This document shows, one piece after another, positions 17,387 through 64,000 of a DNA stretch of 64,000 nt. Every line of letters begins with the position of its first letter. Position 1 is the stretch's first letter. Both the position numbers and the translations under genes were made by a program. The notes beneath the pieces were generated by a model. It was given only the letters and a program-made list of their open reading frames with translations. It was not told where the DNA came from and searched no databases. The DNA comes from Chrysoperla carnea (Eukaryota; Arthropoda; Insecta; Neuroptera; Chrysopidae). The stretch lies in NCBI RefSeq assembly GCF_905475395.1, contig NC_058337.1, positions 118,228,368-118,292,367 of the forward strand, given 5' to 3'.

Positions 17387-20300
17387 ATGGATAATCTAGA
17401 AACTACATCAAATAGCCAAGAAAATGAATTTGTAAGTACAAGAATATTGTTTAAAATTCATTTTATCACAATTTCATTACATCTATTTTACATAATCAAT
17501 TATATTTATATGAATTTACTAGTGAACTTGTTCTCAACTTTTTATTAAAATTTTTCTAAGTCAGAAAATGGCGACAGAAACTAAGTCCCACGTTTCATGT
17601 ATAAGGAGAATGTAATATTTTCAATATTATTAAAATACATGAAAAAATGAAAATTTTTATTTTTCTTTGCGTTTCATAACATTTTATGAGAATTATATAA
17701 AAAAAAATTTTTAATTTTTTTTTAATTAATTTTATTTTTTGTCAGAAAAAGCCATCAAATGGTCATTCGGAGGGTAGTGGACAGGTGAATGGCGTGAGCA
17801 ATGGATACAGTGGTGATGGTAGCAGTAGCAAACATCATAAGAGCAGTAGTCATAAGGATAAACATCGTGACCGTGACCGGGATCGAGATCACAAAAAAGA
17901 CCATAAATCATCTAGCCGGGATAAGGATAAGGACCGTGATCGTGACAAGGACAAGGACCGGGATAAGCATAGCTCATCTAAGGATAAGGTAAGATTTAAG
18001 TATATCTACCTTTATTTCAGTCCTTTTATGTATAACGAGTCTACGATTCTCATACTATCTAAGACAGATCATATCATTTTCTTTACGCCTCGATCGTAAT
18101 CGAATTCGAGAAGTTCAACAAGATATAAATTCTAATTGGATAACTATATATTTACCGAAAACTCGATAAGATGTTAAAGAATAAAATTTATTTCGATATC
18201 TTGCTTATTTTTAAAGATATCGAAAGATTTTAATAGAAATGGAGGCATCTTTTAACTCTTTTTTTATTGAAAACACAATTATGGCAACCTGCATGTCTTT
18301 AAACCCTATATTTTTTATAGTTTTGGAGAAAATGGACATCAATTTTTTTGTTGTAATTTGCGCCCTTGCGGGTAATCAATTATATTTACGAAAAAATGTT
18401 TCAAACAAAAGTTTGCTTCTTTTTTTATAAGGAACATTTTTTATACAGTGTGTCCCCGGATAGAAGATGGATCTTATTGGACCAAGACCCAATTGAAATA
18501 TTGGCCTATATTACTCATTTACGAACTCAAACTCGCTTTTTACGTCCTAAGAACGCTATAGTTTTAGCTTGACATCTCATCACGCTTTTTAGTTTGGCTG
18601 ATTTCTAACACCCGGTATTTTAATCTTTGATATCTTAAAATTCTTAATGTTCGATAACATTTGTAACAAAATCAAAGAGTTATTGCAGATCATTCCATTT
18701 CTAAGCTAAAACTTGCAGATTATTCTATTTCTAAGCAAACTAGATTAAAGTAATTGAGACTTTCGTTAACAATTATTGATTAAAATAATCTGCAATCAAT
18801 CTAAGATTGTTAAGAAAGTTAAATGATTTTTTAATAATTTTGGTAGCGATCAAAAAATTTTTCAACACTGTTTTTCAGTCTTGAAAGAATACTTTTGTCC
18901 AGAGACTCCAACTCAAAACCGCAAAACCTGGATACCCTTTTTAAGAATGAACGTCACAAACGCATGATGTAATGTTATGAAATACTTATAAGCAATTTTT
19001 CTAGTACCGGAGTTGTGTTAGGAGTGGGGCCTGATTTCTCGGTGAATACTCTGTGGCAATTGAAATTACATTATTTAATTATTATAAAACTAAATCACAT
19101 TAAAATTAAAGCCACAATAAAATGGTTTGGAAACGTTGTTTTAATCATTATAATAATATCCGGCGTGGTCTTAACAACTGCAAAATTTTCTGACAAATGT
19201 AATTTTTATATTGCCAAAAGGATTTGAAAAAATCGACCTAAAATAGTTTCAATTAAAGAAAAATATTTTAGCTATTCTTTCTGGGTATATACTAGTAAAC
19301 GAAGTAAACGGAACCTCTCTTTAGTGCCAGGCGAACATCTTCCCTGCCTAATTTCAATAAGAAAATATATATCCAAAATTCAGTCCTCAGTAAATGATTA
19401 ATTGAAACTGAATCTATTCAGCAAATTGATCTCCTATTACCATCGAATCTAGATAGATCAAGTCTGGCTAACGCCATATCAAGTATGCTTAGAATTGAAC
19501 TTATTTACTCAGATGTATTTGTGGCCTTTTTTTGAAAACAAAATTTGCCCAATGATGACAAAATAAATTCGCATAAAGTTGATTTTAAAATTGAAAGCAA
19601 TTGTTCTTAAGTAATCGGAAAAAGGGTTACGCAATTGTGAACATTTTTTAAAATAGGTTACTTCATGTGCGGAGATTATGAGAGCTGAGGGCAAAATTTG
19701 AAAACGTAAAATGAATAATTTGTAAATGCTGCAAACATCTTAAAACAACTTCAGGTTCCTAGATGATATACCTAATTTTCCATTTCGTTCACTAGATGTC
19801 AGAAGTGCCATTTCTTATTACTTAGGAATTCTTATTTCCTATCTTAGGTGCTAATTAAAAGCATATATAGATTATACGAGGTCGTCTATAGACCGAGATA
19901 TTTTTCCGTAACTTTTCATAAGAAGTTTAACAACATAAGACTTTGAATTTATTAAAATTTATTGTTTTCGTTTATATCTACATTAAAATTTTTTAATTAA
20001 TAATTATTACGAAAACCCCTGTCTTCCCTTTTTTTGCCTTTATAACGTTCTATGAATTTTAGAGTTTTAAATTACCAATGACAATCGCTCTGACGTCTGG
20101 TAACGAAAATAGGAAGAATTATTTTGAAATGTAACTTATTTAACCACCAGAAACGTCTTTCTAATATGTTCAAATTCAATAAACATCGATTGAAATACAT
20201 TTTATTTTCTTTTTAATTGTTATAGGATAAGTCAAAAGATCATAAATCATCTAGTCGTGACAAAGACAGAGACAGAGATCGTGACAAAGATAAACATTCG

Positions 20301-23300
20301 TCAGATAAACATCGTAGTAAAGATAAGGATCGACATCATGATGACAAAGATAAAAAATCATCGTCTTCATCATCAAAAGATAAAGATAAAGATCACAAAA
20401 GTAGTAGTCATAGTTCGTCACGTGACAAAGATAAAGAACATAAATCAAGTTCAAGTAGTCATGATAAGCATAAACATAGTTCGTCATCGTCAAAAGATAA
20501 AGATAGAGATAAGGATAAGGATCGTCATAGTTCATCAAAAGACAAAGATAAAGATCGTAAAAGCTCTTCATCGTCCAAACATCATTCATCATCATCATCT
20601 TCAAAAGACAAAGATCGACATCGTGATCGATCCGATAAAGATAGTAAACGTGATAAAGATAAAGAACGTGACAAAGATAAAGATCGTGACAGATCAAAAC
20701 ATGAAAATGGTGAGAAAAAACGTGACAAAGTCGAAGTTAAAGAGGAAAAATTCACTCAACCACAACTGCCTTTGGTCAGTGAAGAACTTGCCCCACAGCC
20801 ACTTGCAGATGTCGATCCTTTGGACATTAAAAATGAGCCTGAATATTATAATTCACAGGATATGTCAGCTGCTAGTAGCTGTGATTATAGTTTTTCACAA
20901 TTTAATAAATCAGAGCCGAATTTTAAGGAGTTTGGACAGAAAGATACAAGTCAAATGAATGGCGAAGATGATCGACGTAATGATTTTGATGATGAAGATA
21001 TGGGAGATGAACGGGCTGATGGTGATAATGACGGGGATGCTGATTATACGGAGGAAGATAGCCAAGATTTACAAATTAAAGAAGAGCAACAGGATGAAGA
21101 TGAAGGCAGTGATGACGATTTACCATTGGTATGTATTAACAAATTTTAGAGAGAAATAATTAAATTTGAAATTTACTATACACCCCCCCCCCCCTCTTCT
21201 AAAAATTCTTGTAGTGATCTAGATTTGTTTGAGGGTAAAAGATATTTCAATTTCACTAGGATATTCATTTAATTTAAATTTTGAACGAATAGCATGTTCT
21301 AAAGGTGCAATCGCCAAAATCGCATGTGCCGTGCGAGGGATCTTTCTAAAAAATTAGTTGTAAATAATTTACGAAAGAAATAAACGTAGTTTAGAATATC
21401 TAAAACTAGTCCATTTTTAAATTGCCCAATGATGACGAAACAAACTCGCATAAAGTGGATTTGAAGAGTGGAAACGATTGTTTATAAGTAATCGGTAAAA
21501 GGATTACGCAATTGTGGAAACTTTTTTAAATAGGTTACTTCATGTGCGGAGATTATGAGAGCTGAGGGCAAAATTTATTCACAAAACGTATTTAAAGTAT
21601 AAGGATGAATTTTTGTTCAACTTCGAGTTGAGACATTGTTATTGAAATAAATACCACGACACTCGAAATAAAATTGTATATTAATAAATTCTATTTAAAA
21701 AATATACAACAGATTTACATTTCGCTAAATATCGATATTTCGATTGCAACGCAATCATCGTCAGTAGCTAAATTTATTCATATAACACATTTATTGAAAA
21801 AAGAAATTTTCAAATCTACTAAATAATTTGTTGTGAAATGTTTACAAAAAATTTGGTGTCTTGAGAAATTTATTTCTTCAAGTTTGCAACGTATTTTCTA
21901 ATTTGTTTTTGCAGTATGCAACGTATTTCTAATTTTTTTTTTTGTTCTTTAGGCAGCTCGTGCTCCAACACCAACAAAACGTAAAGTCGAAGAAGATGAT
22001 GACGATGACGAGGATGTACCATTGATGGCTAGAAAAAAAGTGAAAAAAGAAAAGAAAGAGAAGAAAGCTAAAAAACGTTCTGCTGATTCAGATTATGATG
22101 ATGGCGGAGGAGATTACGATGATTATGAAGATGAAAAACCTAAAAAGAAAAAACAAAAGGTCAAGAAAGAAATTAAAAAGGAGATTAAAAAAGAAATTAA
22201 AAATGAACCAGCTGATAATACTAGCCCTAAGAAAAAGAAAAAGAAAGATGAACAAGAACCAGAAGTTTGGAAATGGTAAGTAATTTCATTTTTTCATTTG
22301 ATATTGTTATACTTTCACTTAGAGTGTTTACACAAGTTTAGTCCCAAGTTTGTAACGTTTAAAAATATTGATGCTATGAACAAAATTTTGGTATAGGTGT
22401 TCATAAAATCACCTAATTAGTCCATTTTCGGTTGTCTGACTGTCTGTCTGTCTATCAACACGATAACTCAAAAACGAAAAAAGATATCAAGCTGAAATTT
22501 TTACAGCGTACTAAGGTTGTAAAAAGTGAGGTTGAATTCGAAAATGAGCAACATAGGTCAATTGGGTTTTTTGTAAACCGTTAGAGATAGAACAAAAGTT
22601 CAAATGTAAAAAATTTTCTTTATAAAAAACAAAACAACTTTTGTTTGAAACATTTTTTCGTAAACATCACTGTTTACTCGTGAGGGCGCTAATTAGGCGT
22701 AAATTGTATAGTATGTGTTATACGAGTATATCAGTTATGTATGTGTGACATGTATGTATTTGTAATGTGATAAAGAAATTAACACTGTCTATGCATGATA
22801 TTTCAACAATTAACTCAGTCAATTGTTTGTTTTCACTTGTTACTTATTAATTTTTGAGAGACAACTTCTACATACCAAAAAAAGTCAGTTTGTATTGCAA
22901 ATTGAACTATCAAGAATTATTCATTAGAGCATATTTCGCAAAATAAAATATCAAATAAATCAGGATGAATCCACAAAAGATATAATCGAAATTTTTATGT
23001 CGAAATATTAAAAATAATAATTAAGAAAATAGCTAAGCCAAAAACAGGCGTTTCTTTGGAGGTGTTTTACAAACGCCTAGAATATGACTTACTTCCTCAG
23101 ATGTATTTGTAGCCCTTTTTTTTTAAACAAAATTGCCCAATGATGACCAATCAAACTCGCATAAAGTGGATTTTAAGAGTGTAAACGATTGTTGATAAGT
23201 AATCGGTAAAAGGATTACGCGATTGTGGATACTTTTTAAAATAGGTTACTTCATGTGCGGAGATTATGAGAGCTGAGGGCAAAATTTGAAAACGTATTAT

Positions 23301-26300
23301 AGATAATTTCTAAATGCTTCAAAAAAACTTTAAAAACAATTCAAGCTGCAACTAATTTATAGGCTGAGCACACATAAGAATTTTACGAAACAGACAAGAA
23401 ATTATTTTAATGTGTTCTCAGTCATTTAGAGATTTTAGAGATTTTTTATATCTCTAAATTCTTTCTGATTTTCACGTTTTTTTCTATTGAAATCTACCGG
23501 TATAAATGGAAAATTAATATATTTCCATATTGGGCTTATAATCTAGGGTTAAAGGGAATGAAGTTGCGGACTCGTTGGCACCAAGAGGAGTCGTCTCAAA
23601 CTCTCAAAATATTATTTCTATAGCAATATGATTCCGTAATTTACCGAATCCAGGAATGGCTGTGAGAAGCTCATCTTGATTACTGGGACCTTGCGCAGGG
23701 TATGCGGCAGCCCAAACTATCGCCATTTGACTGTGCTCGTCTGAAAGTTACTAGAGCACACTTGTCAATGATTAGGTTGGAACTCTTGACAGGTCACTTG
23801 AAACTACCACCTTCATAATATGAGGACCTCCGATGATTCCACTTTTAGAGCCTGTATGAGAAACGATGAAATCTCCATACATGTTATTTGTACCTGCAGA
23901 AATCTGTTGGGCGTCAGGTTTGGAATGTTTGGGTCCGAAACCTTAGATTTAGCAATCCTGGGAGAAATCCCAGCGAAAAAGCTTTGGAATCTCTTCGTGT
24001 CGTCCTCGGCAGAAAGCTATAGCTTGATCTGCTTAAAGCATCTATCAAAGGACCTCTTAGTCTAGGTGCTAAGGACCCATTTGTGAGACCAGTCATGTTT
24101 TATTATTTTTATATTTTAACTAGCTGGGAACTACCCGCTTTGCTGGGCAACATCCCCACTTACACCCCTCCCTCCACATTTCCTTGCGTTGGATAACAGT
24201 TTTGTAATGTACACGTCATGCTCTTTTATTTGATACCCCACTTAGGTATATTTGTAAATATTCGATATTTCCTTCCCACTTTCTCGCTACACCTTTCTAC
24301 CCTCCGAAGGTTAAAAAAATTTCTAAATGTAATTTAAAACATTCTGACCAAGTTTTGAACTATTAAAAGCCATAATTGAAAAATATGAATTTTTTATTCA
24401 TGAACACCCCCGCAACCCCCCTTGTGGGTGGAATTTCGTAAAATCCGTTCTTAGCTGACCTCTACTTGGCAAAAGGAATATTCCTGCCAAATTTCAAGTC
24501 TCTAGGTCTTATAGTTCCAGAGATATCGTGATGAGTGACTATCTATATCTATAGAAAGTCTCCTATATATATATAAGACTAGCTGTTACCCGCCCGCTTT
24601 GCTGGGCAACATCCCCACTTGCACCCCTCCCTCCACATTTCCTTGCGTTGGATAACAGTTTTGTAATGTACACGTCATGCTCTTTTATTTGATATCCCAC
24701 TTAAGTATATTTGTAAATATTCGATAATTCCTTCCCACTTTCTCGCTACACCTTTCTACCCTCCGAAGGTTAAAAAAATCTTCTAAATGTAATTTAAAAC
24801 ATTCTGACCAAGTTTTGAACTATTAAAAGCCATAATTGAAAAATATGAATTTTTTATTCATGAACACCCCCGCAACCCCCCTTGTGGGTGGAATTTCGTA
24901 AAATCCGTTCTTAGCTGACCTCTACTTGGCAAAAGGAATATTCCTGCCAAATTTCAAGTCTCTAGGTCTTATAGTTCCAGAGATATCGTGATGAGTGACT
25001 ATCTATCTATATCTATAGAAAGTCTCCTATATATATAAGATAACTTATTAAATGAATTTTTAATTAGTATTAGATTAGTTACAATATCATTGTAACTAGA
25101 GCAGTCAGTGTATTTAATTTGCATTATTTATTAATAAAAAAAACTTTTAACAAAAAGAAAACCGACTTCAAAAGAAAAACTTTTCCAAAACAAATTAAAA
25201 TGCACTAAAAAGTAAAAAATAACGATAATATAATGTAGTTAAAATTATTGTTCTCAAACAACTCTGACAGAACAGTTTGCTACATTAGTTTGTCTGACAC
25301 CGACTCCAAAAATAACAATAATTTTAACTACATTATATTATCGTTATTTTTTACTTTTTAGTGCATTTTAATTTGTTTTGGAAAAGTTTTTCTTTTGAAG
25401 TCGGTTTTGTAAAGTTTTTTTATTTTGTGATTTTTAGTGAACCTGAAGTGCTCTAACTAATTTATCACTAAAAAAAAATCATCGAAATCGGCTGGTGTGG
25501 TATTGAGTTATTCGTTCTCTTGTCGTGCATACTTAATGTAAATTTAAGACTTTTATGATTTTCTCATGAATACCGTTATCAGAACTCGACCAAAATGAAA
25601 TGGGACCACACGGGAAGCACTAGCTTTCAAATAGATAAAGAATTATCAAAATCGGTTCTCCCAGTCGAAAGTTCTGAGGTAACAAACATAAAAAAAAATA
25701 CAGTCGAATTGAGAACCTCCTTCTTTTTTGTTTGAAGTCGGTTAAAAAGTGAAAGTTAATTGTTGCTTTCCAATATATAATATGTCAAATATCTGTCTTA
25801 AAAACCCGCGTTTATTTTAAAAAAAAAAAGTAGATCAATTTAAAACTAGGTGTCTCTACTCTCTTAATATATTTTTATCGACCATGTTTCACTAACTTGA
25901 TTTTACCACTTAGCAGAGATAATTTTATTTTCTAAAAATTATGAACAAAATCTTCTCATGGAGTAAAATTAAATATTTGAATAATTTAGTATTTCAACAA
26001 AATAAAATTTTTAATAAAAATACATTTCAATATAATTTTAATTCATTATTGTTAGTATATGATTATAGGTTAGAATTTATTAAAAAATATCGTACAAAAT
26101 TGAAAAGTCGTGGGTGAGAAAATTTGATATTTTTATTAATAGAAAACTATTTGTATGGTATAAATCTTATCAAAATTGGGTGTTTATGAATGATTCTCAC
26201 TGCCATTACTTGAATAATACAACTTTCGAAAGTTTTATCGACATTTCATCAAAACCACAGTTGATAAAAAATCCATAAGAGCACGCCACTTTTTTAACTA

Positions 26301-29300
26301 ACCCGCGTTTTTTTATTTTGACTCATAAAATATGGTAAAAATTTTAAAGAAAGGACAAAAGAAACTTCTGACGATATGATATAATCTTCGTTGGGACAAT
26401 CTCGCTGGAAATAACTTCCAACACACAATCTAGCCGTTAAAAAAATGCAATTTAAAAAAAAATTTGTAAAACAATTTAGCAAAAATGCATTTATCTCAAC
26501 AATGTCTAAATATTCCATGTTTATATTTCTAATATTTCTATCAGTTTAGAACATGGAATCTTATACGCATACATACGTGGACCATTATAATCTATAATGA
26601 TTAATAGCTCGTTTTGTACTTAAACCAATAAAAAAATAATTGTAATAAATATGCCGAGTTTGATGGGGGACTGATCCGTAAAAAAACTGATACAAAATCA
26701 GATTTTTATAATACAAGTTGTTTTCAAGAGAAAAAAATAGTTGCTTGGCCTTAAAAAAAAATACGACGAAATGTATTTGCTTCCCCTTTAAAGCCTGAAG
26801 ATACATTCTATGTGATTAACCAAACTTGAAATTTTGCGATAGCGTATATATCGACAGTATATGAAAGTTACAACTTATTAATTTTATTTTAAGGTGGGAG
26901 GAAGAAAAGAAAGATGATGGTACAAAATGGAAATTCTTAGAACATAAAGGTCCCGTATTTGCTCCACCCTATGAACGTATACCAGAAAATGTAAAATTCT
27001 ATTACGATGGTAAAGAAATGCGGTTATCTCAGGACGCGGAAGAAGTTGCTGGATTTTATGCCAGAATGTTGGATCACGATTATACCAGCAAAGATGTATT
27101 CAACAATAATTTCTTCAAAGATTGGCGTAAATGTATGACAGAAAAAGAAAAAGCCAAGATTACCGACCTCAAAAAATGTAATTTCAAACCAATGCAAGCA
27201 TACTTTTTGGATTTATCTGAAAAGAATCGCAATCGGACGAAGGAGGAAAAGGAACAACTAAAACAACAAAATGCTGAGCTTCTAGAAGAATATGGTTATT
27301 GTCTAATTGATGGACATCGCGAGAAAATTGGTAACTTTAAAATTGAACCACCCGGTCTATTTCGGGGTCGTGGGGAACATCCTAAAATGGGTATGTTAAA
27401 AAGACGTGTCATGCCTGAAGATGTGTCAATTAATTGTTCGAAAGATTCGAAATACCCAACACCACCGCCAGGACATAAATGGAAGGATGTACGTCATGAT
27501 CCTACAGTTACATGGTTAGCCAGTTGGACTGAAAATGTACAAAATCAAGTGAAATATGTGATGTTAAATCCAAGTTCTAAATTAAAAGGTGAAAAAGATT
27601 GGCAGAAATATGAAACGGCTCGAAGATTGGCTAAATCTATTGATAAAATCAGAAAGTAAGTATTTCAACATTAAATATTTCAGTTTTTCAAGAAATCCAA
27701 CAAGATTTCTTAGAAGTGTCAAATGATTATAAAATAAATTCTAAGATTGATTATAAAGAAATTTTAAGGAGAAATTTATTTTCAATAGCAGTAAAATTTT
27801 GAAGTAAATTTTAGATTTACTTTAAAGCAACAAAATTTTAATTTATTTTACGTTGATTTTTACAGAGAGTATCGGGAGGATTGGAAATCCAAAGAAATGA
27901 GGATACGACAACGTGCCGTTGCTCTATACTTCATCGATAAGTTAGCGTTGAGAGCTGGTAATGAAAAAGATGAAGATCAAGCTGATACAGTAGGTTGCTG
28001 TTCTCTGCGTGTCGAACATATTTCATTACATGAAAGAAGAGATGACAAGTAAGTTCAGATTTTGTTTTTGTTTTTTGTCTTAGCAAAACAATTTTTTTTC
28101 CTGTGTCAGATTAAAATGCCCAATGATGACAAAATAATTTCGCATAAAGTTGATTTTAGGAGTGGAAACGATTGTTTTCAAGTAATCGGAAAAAGGATTG
28201 CGCAATTGTTGAAACTTTTGAAATAGGTTACTTCATGTGCGGAGATTATGAGAGCTGAGGGCAAAATTTTTAATATTTAAATTAATTTTTTAAATATTTT
28301 TTTATTCCTCTAGTTGGCTAGAAAATCTAAAACTATCGGTGCATTTTTTCATCTTTTCTTCTTGGATTGTAATCCAAACTATTTTCTCCTTTTTTCAGAG
28401 AATATGTGGTTGTTTTTGATTTTCTCGGTAAAGATTCCATACGTTACTACAACGAAGTGCCAGTTGAAAAGCGTGTATTTAAAAATTTACAATTATTTAT
28501 GGAAAATAAATCGCCGTCAGATGATTTATTTGATCGATTAAATACCGCAGTCATGAACAAACATTTAAACGAACTTATGGAAGGTTTAACAGCTAAAGTA
28601 TTTCGTACATATAACGCTTCATGGACCCTACAACAACAATTAGACGAATTAACCGATCCAGATGCTTCAATACCAGAAAAAATTCTACAATATAATCGTG
28701 CTAATCGTGCTGTGGCTATTTTGTGTAACCATCAAAGGAGTGTACCCAAGGGACATAATAAATCTATGGAAAAATTAAAAGAAAAAATTGAACAGAAGAG
28801 AGAACAAATTGCTGATGGAGAGCAACAAGTTAAAGATGCTAAACGTGCTGCTAAGGGGGGTAGTGTTAAAGAACAAGTGAATTATGATAAAAAGAAGAAA
28901 ATGTTAGAACGTTTAAAAGACCAATTGAAAAAATTAGAATTACAAGAAACAGATCGTGATGAGAATAAAACAATTGCTTTGGGTACGTCCAAATTGAATT
29001 ATTTGGATCCAAGAATTTCTGTTGCCTGGTAAGTGTTTTAAATTTTGTTTTTATCGCTAAATATTTTTGTCCTCAAATAGTTTTACTATGTTGTAAAAAA
29101 AAAATTTCTCATTTCAACCTATCCCGTGGCCTTTTTATTTTGTGTTTGGAATGAAATTTCGTTCTTTTTCACATAAATTGATTGTTAGTCTAAAAGCTGA
29201 ATGAAAACTTGTTTAATACTTCTACGATAGTTGAATACGAAGTGAAGCCCTGGCTGAAAAGTTGCGGAATTTGTCTAACCTATATTAAAATGTTCGTGTC

Positions 29301-30035
29301 CTCAAATTTAATATTGAAAAAAATTAAAAACCCAGTTTTTTTAGCGGTTTTGTCTTAATAAAAATTAATTAGCCATAAATAAAAAAAATATATTTTCCAA
29401 ACATAAAAAATATATTTGAGGCACTAAAAAAAGACTTGTTTAAAAAATGTTATTAAAAATAACGCCCGATGATGACAAAATAATTACGCTTAAAGTGGGT
29501 TTTAAGAGTGGAAACGATTGTTTACAAGTAATCGGTAAAAGGATTACGCAATTGTGGAAACTTTTGAAATAGGTTACTTCATGTGCGGAGATTATGAGAG
29601 CTGAGGGCAAAAAATTCAATAATAATACGTTAATTAAGAGGGGGGGGGGGCGGTTCTTATTCAAATTATATGAGAGCTTAGATCATGTGAAATATTCTCC
29701 TGAAAAAAAAAGTTATTTGAAACTTTTTACTGAATTTTTGAAGACGCATTCAACACGATGTTGTTTTCGACAATAAAATTCTTTCTTGTCAAACTTCTCC
29801 TGTTTTATAATTCTGGCGATAATTGCTTATCGCAGACAATGTAATCCGAAGCTTATGCGTATGTAAAAGAGGCGCATCCATTATACCCAACCCTTAAATC
29901 TAACCTAATCTTGAATTTATTTTTACTTTCAGGTGCAAGAAACATGATGTACCAATAGAAAAAATTTATAACAAAACACAACGTGATAAATTTCGTTGGG
30001 CTATCGACATGGCTACCGAGGATTATGTGTTTTAA
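17387..30035 (+). CDS. Top1: DNA topoisomerase I (type IB)
   Basis: Eight exons: 17387-17431, 17746-17988, 20226-21128, 21953-22275, 26894-27655, 27866-28048, 28399-29028, 29933-30035. All are in phase and give 1063 residues. The enzyme nicks one DNA strand, lets supercoils relax and reseals, in nucleus and nucleolus. Residues to about 500 are a disordered, K/D/R/H/S-rich nuclear-localisation domain, longer than the human one of about 215 residues. The core and linker follow, with catalytic Arg807, Lys831, Arg889 and His931. The C-terminal domain has the nucleophile Tyr1021 in [10 protein letters not shown], 42 residues from the end as in human TOP1. SUMO-type motifs (DIKNEP, QIKEE, EIKNEP) lie in the N-domain. 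The first ATG in the frame is used. Five of the seven introns carry one copy of a C/D-box-like RNA unit, so Top1 appears to be a small-RNA host gene. Intron 4 (4.6 kb) is rich in repeats. Confidence 0.97.
19547..19692 (+). ncRNA. C/D-box snoRNA-like unit, copy 1 (Top1 intron 2)
   Basis: 146 nt bounded by GCCC and GGGC, with a C box ATGATGA at 19552-19558 and a D box CTGA at 19685-19688 directly before the closing stem. The stem may extend through flanking TTT/AAA. It shows the conserved internal hairpin (CAATTG...GTAATC...GGTTAC...CAATTG) and the 3' block shared by all five units. Flanks are also shared with copy 3, so the two arose by duplication of a larger intron piece. It is in the sense orientation, so it could be trimmed from the spliced intron. 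Function is inferred from box geometry only. Confidence 0.65.
20226..20760 (+). repeat. Coding low-complexity tract in Top1 exon 3
   Basis: Roughly 180 codons built from K-D-R-D, H-K-S-S-S and S-S-S-K-D-K permutations, continuing the same composition as exon 2 (17800-17988). The frame stays open, so this is an expanded but functional basic/acidic low-complexity segment of the Top1 N-terminal domain rather than a non-coding microsatellite. Confidence 0.8.
21424..21569 (+). ncRNA. C/D-box snoRNA-like unit, copy 2 (Top1 intron 3)
   Basis: 146 nt from GCCC to GGGC. The C box ATGATGA is at 21429-21435 and the D box CTGA at 21562-21565. The unit sits 296 nt after exon 3 and about 384 nt before exon 4. 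Relative to copy 1 the central half has many substitutions, yet the last 42 nt are identical. Confidence 0.65.
22336..22620. repeat. Interspersed repeat C, copy 2 (Top1 intron 4)
   Basis: Same order as the other copies: AAGTTTAGTCCCAAGTTTG, then ATAGGTGTTCATAAAATCAC, a GTCTGTCTGTC tract, CACGATAACTCAAAAACG and GAGCAACATAGGTCAATTGG. It is non-coding and closest to the copy at 62667. Confidence 0.75.
23135..23280 (+). ncRNA. C/D-box snoRNA-like unit, copy 3 (Top1 intron 4)
   Basis: 146 nt with a GCCC/GGGC terminal stem, a C box ATGATGA and a D box CTGA right before GGGC. The internal stem partner reads CGATTG here, pairing with CGATTG through wobbles. About 40 nt upstream (CAGATGTATTTGT) and about 60 nt downstream match copy 1, showing a segmental duplication between introns 2 and 4. 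Confidence 0.65.
23547..24088 (+). mobile_element. LINE 3' fragment (family A), plus orientation
   Basis: The sequence begins with a decayed RNase H segment ([12 protein letters not shown]) and continues into the zinc-knuckle-like tail (TGHLKL, then [12 protein letters not shown]-like remnants in shifted frames). It ends near a CTAGGTGCTAAGGACCCATT tail. Several frameshifts and stops make it a pseudogene. It is related to the fragments at 9230, 49690 and 63142 but points the other way. Confidence 0.7.
24119..25036. repeat. Tandem duplication of a ~459-bp interspersed element
   Basis: Unit 1 (24119-24577) and unit 2 (24578-25036) are nearly identical. Each starts ACTAGCTG, then CCGCTTTGCTGGGCAACATC, and ends in TATAGAAAGTCTCCTATATA. 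The ACTAGCTG-CCCGC-GCTTTGCTGGG opening is a widespread insect repeat terminus. Differences are few (for example an inserted CGCC at the start of unit 2), so the duplication is young. It is non-coding and inside Top1 intron 4. Confidence 0.85.
25160..25743. mobile_element. Composite interspersed repeat with terminal hairpin (copy 2)
   Basis: Inverted relative to the copy at 2970-3570. The hairpin part comes first (arms about 25160-25250 and 25310-25410, spacer containing CTGACACCGACTCC), followed by the part carrying GGGACCACACGGGAAGCACT. It ends TTTGAAGTCGGTT. It lies in Top1 intron 4. Confidence 0.75.
28118..28262 (+). ncRNA. C/D-box snoRNA-like unit, copy 4 (Top1 intron 6)
   Basis: 145 nt, filling nearly half of the 350-nt intron 6 and ending 136 nt before exon 7. 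GCCC/GGGC stem, ATGATGA C box and CTGA D box are intact. The inner stem has GTAATC against GATTGC, which still pairs by a U-G wobble. The 3' 42 nt are identical to the other copies. A short intron dominated by the unit is the usual setting for an intron-encoded snoRNA. Confidence 0.68.
29464..29608 (+). ncRNA. C/D-box snoRNA-like unit, copy 5 (Top1 intron 7)
   Basis: 145 nt. The C box is preceded by CG instead of A (GCCC-G-ATGATGA). D box and closing GGGC are intact. The internal stem-loop is CGATTG 29515-29520, GTAATC 29528-29533, GATTAC 29542-29547, CAATTG 29549-29554. The unit ends 324 nt before exon 8. A G-run (about 29640) follows downstream. Confidence 0.65.
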
Positions 30036-62114: not shown

Positions 62115-64000
62115 ATGGTGAAATTAACATCAGAATTAATAACACAATCCATGCAATATATAAATCCTGTACGAGACCGGGAATTAGATTTAAGAGGTAT
62201 TTATTTTCAAACAATGATTTAATAAAAATTTTAATTTTTTTGCGTTATGTTTTTTAGGTTATAAAATACCACAAATCGAGAATTTGGGTGCCACATTAGA
62301 TCAGTTTGATACATTGGATTTTTCCGATAATGATATAAGAAAATTGGATAATTTTCCATATTTAAAGCGTTTGAAATGCTTATTAATGAATAATAATCGA
62401 ATTGTGTAAGTATTGGTTTTAGTTAAGGGAATTTTGGTTTTTGAAAACGGTAAGCAATACGACGCTTAATTAAACGTTATTTGTTTTTATCATGCGCACA
62501 AAAAATTATCAGCGTATTTGATTTCAAAACAAATTAAACATAAATATGAGAAAAACTGGAAGCCCATTTTATCTCTTGTTTTATAGAACCCAATAGTGCA
62601 ATGAATGAAGTTACAAAAATAATATTAAATGTTTTTATACCAAGAATATATATAATATGTAAGGTATACTAAGTTTAGTCCCAAGTTTGTAACGCTTAAA
62701 AATATTAATGCTATGAACAAAATTTTGGTATAGGTGTTTATAAAATCACCTAATTAGTCCATTTTCGGTTGTCTGTCCGCCTGTCCGTCTGTCTGCCAAC
62801 ACGATAACTCAAAAACGAAAAAAGCTATCAAGCTGAAATACAGCGCACTCAGGACGTAAAAAGTGAGTTCAAGTTTGTAAATGAGCAACATAGGTCAATT
62901 GGGCCCTGACCTATGAGTCCATAGGACCCATCTTGTAAACCGTTAGAGATAGAACAAAAGTTTAAATGTAAAAAATCTTCCTTATCAAAAAATAAACAAC
63001 TAGTTGAAAAATAAACTTAAAACCAAATGGCCATTGATGGTTTTCTTTACACTCTGTGCTGATCATGAGTTTCCTCTTGTGCTTAAAAATTAACTTAAAA
63101 AATAGCTCAGCTAATCGAAATAGAAGAAATAATAATAAATTATAAGGGGTACCGCAAATGAGTCCCTGACACGTAGACCAATGGGTAAGAGATGCTATTT
63201 TAAGCTGATGAAGCTAAAGGATTCTGTCGTGGTTAGACGCCACGAAAGTCCACAGATTGATGGATCCAAGGTTTCGGGCCCAAACATTCTGAAACTGACA
63301 CCCTGCAAATTTCTGTAGGTGCAAACAACACTTGCGGAGGTTTCATCATCCTCCATACAAGCGCTACAAGTGGGATTAGTAGAGATTCCCACGTTTTTAT
63401 TGTGGTAATTCAATCGATAGTGTCCTGCCAAGAGTCCCACAATTTATACACAGTTTGGCCTGTCGCATGCCCTGCCCAAAGACCCAGTAATTAAGATGTG
63501 TTTCTCGTAGCCACACTTTGATTCGGTAAATAACGGAACATCTTGCCATGAGAATGACGAGCTCAGTTGAAAGGGGAATTTGTGACGATCCCTCTTGTGC
63601 AAACGAGTCCGCTGCTTCATTCTTTTTGACTGTGTTATTCAGTGCCAGGCAATTCAGTTTTTCGAAGTATATTCATAGACTATTCTGGATTGAATGCGAC
63701 CTGACTATCTAAAAATAGTCGAAATAGATAAATTTAATTAAAACTGAAATTATAAATTTAATATAATTTTTTAACATGTTTGTTTAGACGCATTGCTGAA
63801 GGCTTAGAAGAATGTATACCAAACCTAGAAAGTTTGATATTAACTGGAAATCAAATTGAAGAATTATGTGACATTGATCCATTAATTCCGTTAACAAAAT
63901 TAACAACATTAAGTTTACTCCACAATCCAATCACAGCCAAAGCCCATTATCGTTTATATATTGCATTTAAATTGCCACAAGTCACATTATTAGATTTTTG
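62115..64000 (+). CDS. SNRPA1: U2 small nuclear ribonucleoprotein A' (5' part, cut by window end)
   Basis: Exons 62115-62196, 62258-62405 and 63788 to the window end (open) join in phase. U2A' is the leucine-rich-repeat protein that, with U2B'', binds stem-loop IV of U2 snRNA in the spliceosome. The start MVKLTSELI, the NPVRDRELDLRGYKIPQIEN segment, NLGATLDQFDTLDFSDNDIR, LLMNNNRIV, LILTGNQIEELCDIDPL and LSLLHNPIT with the capping motif HYRLY are the expected LRRs in order. The C-terminal region lies to the right of the window. Intron 2 (1.38 kb) holds repeat C copy 3 and a LINE fragment. Confidence 0.96.
62667..62995. repeat. Interspersed repeat C, copy 3 (U2A' intron 2)
   Basis: AAGTTTAGTCCCAAGTTTGT, ATAGGTGTTTATAAAATCAC, CTGTCCGTCTGTCTGCCAAC, ACGATAACTCAAAAACG and GAGCAACATAGGTCAATTGG in the same order as at 22336. 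Non-coding. Confidence 0.75.
63142..63655 (-). mobile_element. LINE 3' fragment (family A), longest copy, U2A' intron 2
   Basis: On the complement: a decayed RNase H segment (EAADSFAQEGSSQIPL, from about 63640) and then the tail GLLAGHYRLNYH with a Cys-x2-Cys pair and EDDETSASVVC, the usual C-terminal zinc-knuckle-like region of I/jockey/R1-type elements. The non-coding end is complementary to GGGGTACCGCAAATGAGTCC. It is antisense to U2A', 5'-truncated and frameshifted. Confidence 0.75.

Follow-up and report, generated by a model that had tools for sequence, protein, structure and literature searches.

Five probable SNORD97-like box C/D RNAs in introns of the Top1 gene of Chrysoperla carnea

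Results

Five short units in the introns of a DNA topoisomerase I gene (Top1) of Chrysoperla carnea very probably encode box C/D guide RNAs that belong to the SNORD97/SCARNA97 family, have multiplied in this host and would guide 2′-O-methylation of tRNA-Met at C34. This reading builds on their sequence, their placement, their similarity to the family and the register of their guide, as observed in the window, the whole 64-kb stretch of DNA that we analyzed (Table 1). The first-pass annotation had described five sense units of 145–146 nt, one apiece in Top1 introns 2, 3, 4, 6 and 7, and had favored a box C/D RNA over a transposon; it gave neither a family nor a target.

That placement held on a gene model in which eight GT/AG-bounded coding exons join into an open frame of 1063 aa, with one sense unit in each of the five introns (introns are counted between coding exons, UTR introns lying outside the model). 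The identity of the host is evident from exon 5, which matches Pfam Topoisom_I_N (E = 6.8e-100) and, among known structures, DNA topoisomerase I chains (E = 1.8e-125), as well as from exon 7, which matches Pfam Topoisom_I (E = 1.1e-62). The two shortest introns of Top1, intron 1 at 314 nt and intron 5 at 210 nt, contain no unit.

Table 1. Coordinates of the Top1 gene, the SNORD97-like units and the duplicated segment, as positions in the window
Feature	Position	Strand	C box	Guide	D box	Nucleotide facing C34	RF01291 match and remarks
Top1 coding span	17387–30035	+					8 coding exons
Top1 coding exons 1–4	17387–17431, 17746–17988, 20226–21128, 21953–22275	+
Top1 coding exons 5–8	26894–27655, 27866–28048, 28399–29028, 29933–30035	+
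SNORD97-like copy 1, intron 2	19547–19692	+	19552–19558	19673–19683	19685–19688	19680	39.7 bits, full length
SNORD97-like copy 2, intron 3	21424–21569	+	21429–21435	21550–21560	21562–21565	21557	33.9 bits, E = 0.011, full length
SNORD97-like copy 3, intron 4	23135–23280	+	23140–23146	23261–23271	23273–23276	23268	30.7 bits, E = 0.054, full length
SNORD97-like copy 4, intron 6	28118–28262	+	28123–28129	28243–28253	28255–28258	28250	30.9 bits, E = 0.047, full length
SNORD97-like copy 5, intron 7	29464–29608	+	29469–29475	29589–29599	29601–29604	29596	23.6 bits, E = 1.9, full length; weakest, not significant alone
Segment around copy 1 with flanks common to copy 3	19487–19753 vs 23075–23343	+					85.3% over 272 nt, unit included

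All units lie on the + strand, as had been claimed, whereas the constant length claimed with it is true to 1 nt (146 nt in copies 1–3, 145 nt in copies 4 and 5). Each begins with GCCC, a single purine and ATGATGA and ends with CTGA followed at once by GGGC, a layout that both reading and alignment confirmed in all five. It comprises a C box (RUGAUGA), a D box (CUGA) and a terminal stem of four GCCC/GGGC pairs, which is unchanged throughout. Pairwise identity among the units is 86.2–94.5%, and no stretch free of variation is longer than the 42 nt at the 3′ end, which contain guide, D box and stem; column shuffling gave an invariant run of at least 42 nt in 30 of 100000 trials. Searching the window with a profile of the five units (E ≤10) returned those five alone, consistent with the earlier statement that no copy lies outside Top1 there. 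Some other repeats in the window do recur outside Top1. When the window was scanned for pairs of C/D-like boxes closed by a stem of at least 3, further candidates came up besides the five units: two on the + strand, which lie in Top1 exon 4 and have stems of 3, and three on the − strand with stems of 3, 4 and 3. A TAGGTTA stretch is also present, for which a telomerase-RNA reading was considered.

The Rfam model of SNORD97 (RF01291) aligned over its full length (positions 1–142 of 142) to all five units, the best match having E = 0.00055 in an 11-kb scan with 4227 families (E = 8e-06 against copy 1 alone). A covariance-model search had been proposed as a check, and its outcome was mixed: every unit aligned end to end, but none attained the gathering score of 45 bits, nor did any Rfam family attain its own anywhere in the window. 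Because of these sub-gathering scores we call the units SNORD97-like; on sequence grounds, they are probable diverged SNORD97 homologs. Their length, unusual for a C/D RNA, is explained by the 142 positions of the SNORD97 model itself, and the scaRNA or processing roles that had been left open are less likely than a role as tRNA-Met guide. A 20-nt pattern derived from SNORD97 was found at two loci in viral_contigs and six in genome_contigs; none of the eight matched SNORD97 at the gathering score, and by judgement we took them as chance.

Outside the units, similarity falls off, with a mean pairwise identity of 0.90 within the unit, 0.42 in the left 30 nt and 0.54 in the right 30 nt. Copies 1 and 3 are alike beyond their ends (left, 46/60 identical, 77%; right, 44/60, 73%), and these common flanks appear to be left over from a duplication that took in more than the RNA itself. 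Taken together, the flanks suggest intragenic duplication along with conversion or bare-unit copying. Ordinary intragenic snoRNA duplication could also have left one or two active copies and a set of decaying ones, an account that is compatible with our main explanation, carries no dosage meaning and is possible, if less than probable. Copy 1 is indeed the richest in private changes (in 7 of the 30 variable columns it alone differs) and copy 5 is the weakest match to the family model, but all five units keep an intact C box, guide, D box and terminal stem, and the 3′ end is invariant even though the flanks common to copies 1 and 3 have drifted.

In every unit, the guide AGAUUAUGAGA precedes the canonical D box and matches the SNORD97 consensus at all 11 nt. 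It forms 11 Watson–Crick pairs with the anticodon arm of tRNA-Met(CAT), placing the N+5 nucleotide on C34, as judged with two tRNA genes that are not the host's own and that were picked for carrying the anticodon arm of eukaryotes. A box C/D guide is expected to span at least 10 nt directly before the D box with N+5 on the target, and this was found in all units with these genes from outside the host. Elsewhere in the window, by comparison, 361 further CTGA sites paired over at most 7 nt with the first of the two. No tRNA genes were found in the 64-kb window.

The internal region of the units folds as a long hairpin, with folding energies at z = −2.16 to −4.28; of 200 shuffles, 6, 2, 0, 0 and 0 folded equally well. 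Covariation was dropped as support for this hairpin, with a single double change and 109 of 500 shuffles as good. The internal pyrimidine fraction is 0.40–0.43, compared to 0.65 in the Rfam consensus, and a pyrimidine-rich Cajal-body region of the kind that marks SCARNA97 is absent from all five units. The long hairpin, this departure from the consensus, the sub-gathering scores and a ‘no’ for Met(CAU) N34 of Drosophila in table 2 of PMC9889914 would fit a diverged relative that acts on an rRNA or snRNA instead of, or besides, tRNA-Met, or one whose hairpin serves as a scaffold or in processing. Judged by the pairing with tRNA-Met, we consider this alternative improbable, as every unit keeps the 11-nt guide unaltered and aligned to C34.

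Box C/D RNA as the class, over a transposon, is well supported by the full-length if sub-gathering RF01291 alignments, the N+5 register to tRNA-Met C34 and the invariant 42-nt 3′ end, which bears out the first-pass annotation on this point. A family of transposable elements or MITEs bounded by GCCC/GGGC would explain why there are several copies, each sharply delimited and with short inverted sequences at its borders, but is very improbable given that every copy is sense and confined to Top1 within the 64 kb, that the snoRNA family aligns at full length and that copies 1 and 3 are alike beyond the unit ends, unlike transposition. By eye, no obvious target-site duplications were seen in the flanks.

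Discussion

Intronic snoRNAs are generally released by debranching and exonuclease trimming. For the units described here, the excised Top1 intron would likewise be debranched and trimmed by exonucleases to the GCCC/GGGC terminal stem, and the released RNA would form a particle with the box C/D proteins. In this particle, the guide next to the D box would base-pair with elongator tRNA-Met(CAT) at its anticodon arm and so present the wobble C34 to fibrillarin for 2′-O-methylation. We infer RNP assembly, the tRNA-Met target and methylation from the human family, for which PMC6601510 reports that knockout and restoration showed tRNA-Met C34 to be the target of SNORD97/SCARNA97.

Human SNORD97 (RF01291; EIF4G2 intron) resembles the units in its length (142 model positions), its UUGCCC/GGGCAA terminal stem, its C box and the same guide before the D box, and, according to PMC6601510, in being intronic and sense. 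In contrast, the units sit in Top1, number five, carry a canonical CTGA where the model consensus has AUGA, and have the hairpin in place of a pyrimidine-rich internal part. Human SCARNA97 (SNORD133; LARP4 intron) is described in PMC6601510 as acting on the same nucleotide, with a guide that strongly resembles the SNORD97 one; at 216 nt, it includes a 93-nt pyrimidine-rich Cajal-body signal, which the units lack. According to the same paper, the guide is invariant across the family except in bird SNORD97. The paper names candidates of the same family in Drosophila, silkworm and honey bee, states that the insect anticodon arms can pair, and gives one candidate gene, with no host gene named in its text, where we find five copies. 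Paralogs in separate introns of one host, as here, are described in PMC2653536 for intragenic (cis) snoRNA duplication in a chicken gas5-like host, albeit for other snoRNA families, another host and another animal group.

The RNA family is known, and five copies in a Top1 host are the unusual arrangement. Within the open-licence literature, judged by title and start of abstract, we found no report of Top1 as a snoRNA host. On this basis Top1 as host gene and the copy number of five appear new; Top1 may already be on record as a host elsewhere. The five units also offer Top1 as a host gene and, on a small scale, a tidy example of a snoRNA expanding within one gene.

In PMC6601510 the insect counterpart is a sequence candidate only, and the Drosophila site is entered as ‘no’ in table 2 of the later PMC9889914, so that C34 modification is not established in insects. 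With five guide copies in one species, each with its boxes and guide undamaged, this discrepancy should be easy to test. We speculate that carrying more than one copy increases the dose of the guide or safeguards it. Going further, an arthropod lineage might have multiplied its guide for tRNA-Met wobble methylation inside Top1, with conversion keeping the copies alike and guide dose thereby tied to Top1 transcription; we regard this as unlikely, yet worth stating. Angiogenin is not known from insects. If the multiplied guide, its conversion and its dose tied to Top1 were true, this species would be a natural place to test whether snoRNA-guided Cm34 operates in insects, and against what Cm34 guards tRNA-Met where angiogenin is absent.

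Putative SNORD97-family guide RNAs in Top1 introns

The five units are very probably intron-encoded guide RNAs of the SNORD97 family, multiplied within Top1, as judged from their sequences. The first-pass annotation had described five 145-146 nt units with a C-box, D-box and terminal-stem layout in Top1 introns 2, 3, 4, 6 and 7; coordinates, strand, lengths and motifs all proved correct, and our eight-exon gene model places the units in the same coding introns. Its proposal of a box C/D RNA family was supported by SNORD97 (RF01291) alignments spanning model positions 1-142 of 142 on every unit, albeit below the gathering score. In the Top1 model, eight coding exons separated by GT...AG introns give an open frame of 1063 aa. 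Since Pfam topoisomerase I domains fall on exons 5 and 7, and exon 5 matches DNA topoisomerase I structures, the host protein is topoisomerase I. Its N-terminal region (exons 2 and 3) is a very long tail rich in Ser/Lys/Asp/Arg repeats. The two shortest introns, 1 (314 nt) and 5 (210 nt), carry no unit, and the distance from unit to 3′ splice site ranged from 136 to 3613 nt across copies, so spacing is not fixed.

Features of the Top1 region, with SNORD97 scores and fold statistics (shuffles folding as well, out of 200)
Feature	Position	Strand	Intron	Bits	E	Fold z	Shuffles
Copy 1	19547-19692	+	2	39.7	0.00055	-2.75	2
Copy 2	21424-21569	+	3	33.9	0.011	-2.16	6
Copy 3	23135-23280	+	4	30.7	0.054	-3.58	0
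Copy 4	28118-28262	+	6	30.9	0.047	-4.28	0
Copy 5	29464-29608	+	7	23.6	1.9	-3.43	0
N-terminal tail	17746-21128						
Direct repeat	24110-24573, 24568-25037		4				
Foldback-like	25158-25408		4				
Dispersed repeat	22334-22639		4				
Dispersed repeat, distal	62671-63001						

No family reached its gathering score in an Rfam scan of the window. Rescanning 19000-30000 with an E-value threshold gave 18 matches, of which the four highest by bits were SNORD97 on copies 1, 2, 4 and 3, with copy 5 eighth. All five scores lie below the gathering score of 45, so that test does not formally place the units in SNORD97, and the putative assignment of copy 5 rests on likeness to the other four. Scanned alone, copy 1 matched SNORD97 at E 8e-06; the next best of its 13 Rfam matches stood at 0.51 by E-value and 19.1 by bits. 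The alignment is good at the C box, across the UUGCCC/GGGCAA terminal stem and in AGAUUAUGAGA, which precedes the D box.

Mean pairwise identity was 0.90 across units, dropping to 0.42 (left) and 0.54 (right) over 30 nt on either side, and conservation ends at the terminal stem plus a few A/T bases. Only 30 of 146 alignment columns vary; the final 42, containing guide, D box and 3′ stem, are invariant (a run that long arose in 30 of 100000 column shuffles). Searched against the window with an E-value cutoff of 10, a profile of the units matched these five and nothing else.

Pairing with tRNA-Met and predicted fold

No tRNA genes were found in the window. We used two tRNA-Met(CAT) genes, located on viral contigs and not the host's, chosen for carrying what we take to be the eukaryotic anticodon arm; pairing therefore tests register, not target discovery. 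All units formed 11 nt of Watson-Crick pairing with both genes, the fifth nucleotide upstream of CTGA facing C34 each time, and 361 other CTGA sites (both strands of the window) paired over at most 7 nt with the first gene. Each unit carries one exact copy of the guide 11-mer, and the rest of the window has none.

In the relevant passages of Vitali and Kiss (PMC6601510), C34 of tRNA-Met is shown to be the target of human SNORD97 and SCARNA97, invertebrates including insects yielded only one common SNORD97/SCARNA97 candidate gene, the guide is common to homologs except bird SNORD97, and insect anticodon arms are able to pair with it. The same passages describe a pyrimidine-rich Cajal-body signal in SCARNA97. 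Internal pyrimidine fractions of 0.40-0.43, versus 0.65 in the Rfam consensus, indicate that the units, unlike SCARNA97, lack this signal, and a nucleolar RNA would be the simpler expectation.

The units are predicted to fold into a long internal hairpin. Pairing held in 96.4% of alignment cells versus 39-51% in slid controls, with the structure derived from the same five sequences; covariation amounted to one double change, equalled in 109 of 500 shuffles.

Origin of the copies

Copies 1 and 3 (19487-19753 versus 23075-23343) have flanks identical at 46/60 and 44/60 positions, compared with 14-51% in the 18 other flank comparisons. Among 60 random intron pairs the median was 0.37 and the highest 0.76, so a single flank value does not prove shared origin; the 272-nt match across both flanks and the unit is the stronger sign. 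Flank likeness is at odds with unit likeness, which is highest for copies 2 and 3 (138/146; copies 1 and 3, 128/146). This suggests faster change of copy 1 (seven columns are private to it), conversion keeping some copies alike, or an origin of copy 3 (or 2) by copying of the unit alone, without flanks. The grouping columns (two joining copies 2 and 3 against the rest, one copies 1 and 3, four copies 4 and 5) are too few to choose among these. Intragenic snoRNA duplication has a vertebrate precedent in the part of PMC2653536 consulted.

Intron 4 also holds a ~465-nt repeat in two head-to-tail direct copies (96.4% identical) and a ~250-nt foldback-like segment matching its own reverse complement at 86.7%. 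A dispersed repeat recurs 40 kb away at ~90% identity, and further intron-4 pieces recur in inverted form near 63 kb and 50 kb. This dispersed repeat recurs outside Top1, whereas the five units do not within the window.

Standing of the functional reading

In PMC9889914 (Table 2), Drosophila Met(CAU) N34 is listed as 'no' by previous RiboMethSeq and the human position as Cm, and the available passages of a Drosophila Trm7 paper (PMC7038984) mention the human guide and not Drosophila tRNA-Met; Cm34 is therefore not an established modification in insects. According to the passages of PMC6601510, loss of SNORD97 and SCARNA97 together caused no detectable growth defect in human cells, so strong selection on copy number has no evident reason. 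This knockout result, the random flank pair at 0.76 and the non-significance of copy 5 alone slightly tempered our confidence in SNORD97-family guides and slightly raised the standing of a transposable-element or MITE family with GCCC/GGGC ends, which is still very improbable. They likewise temper the idea that the lineage multiplied a putative tRNA-Met guide inside Top1, kept alike by conversion and with dose tied to Top1 transcription, which we consider unlikely. Top1 was not found reported as a snoRNA host in open-licence literature, judged mostly from listings. The kind of RNA is known, the five-copy number appears new and the Top1 host is perhaps new, making the finding one of modest interest.
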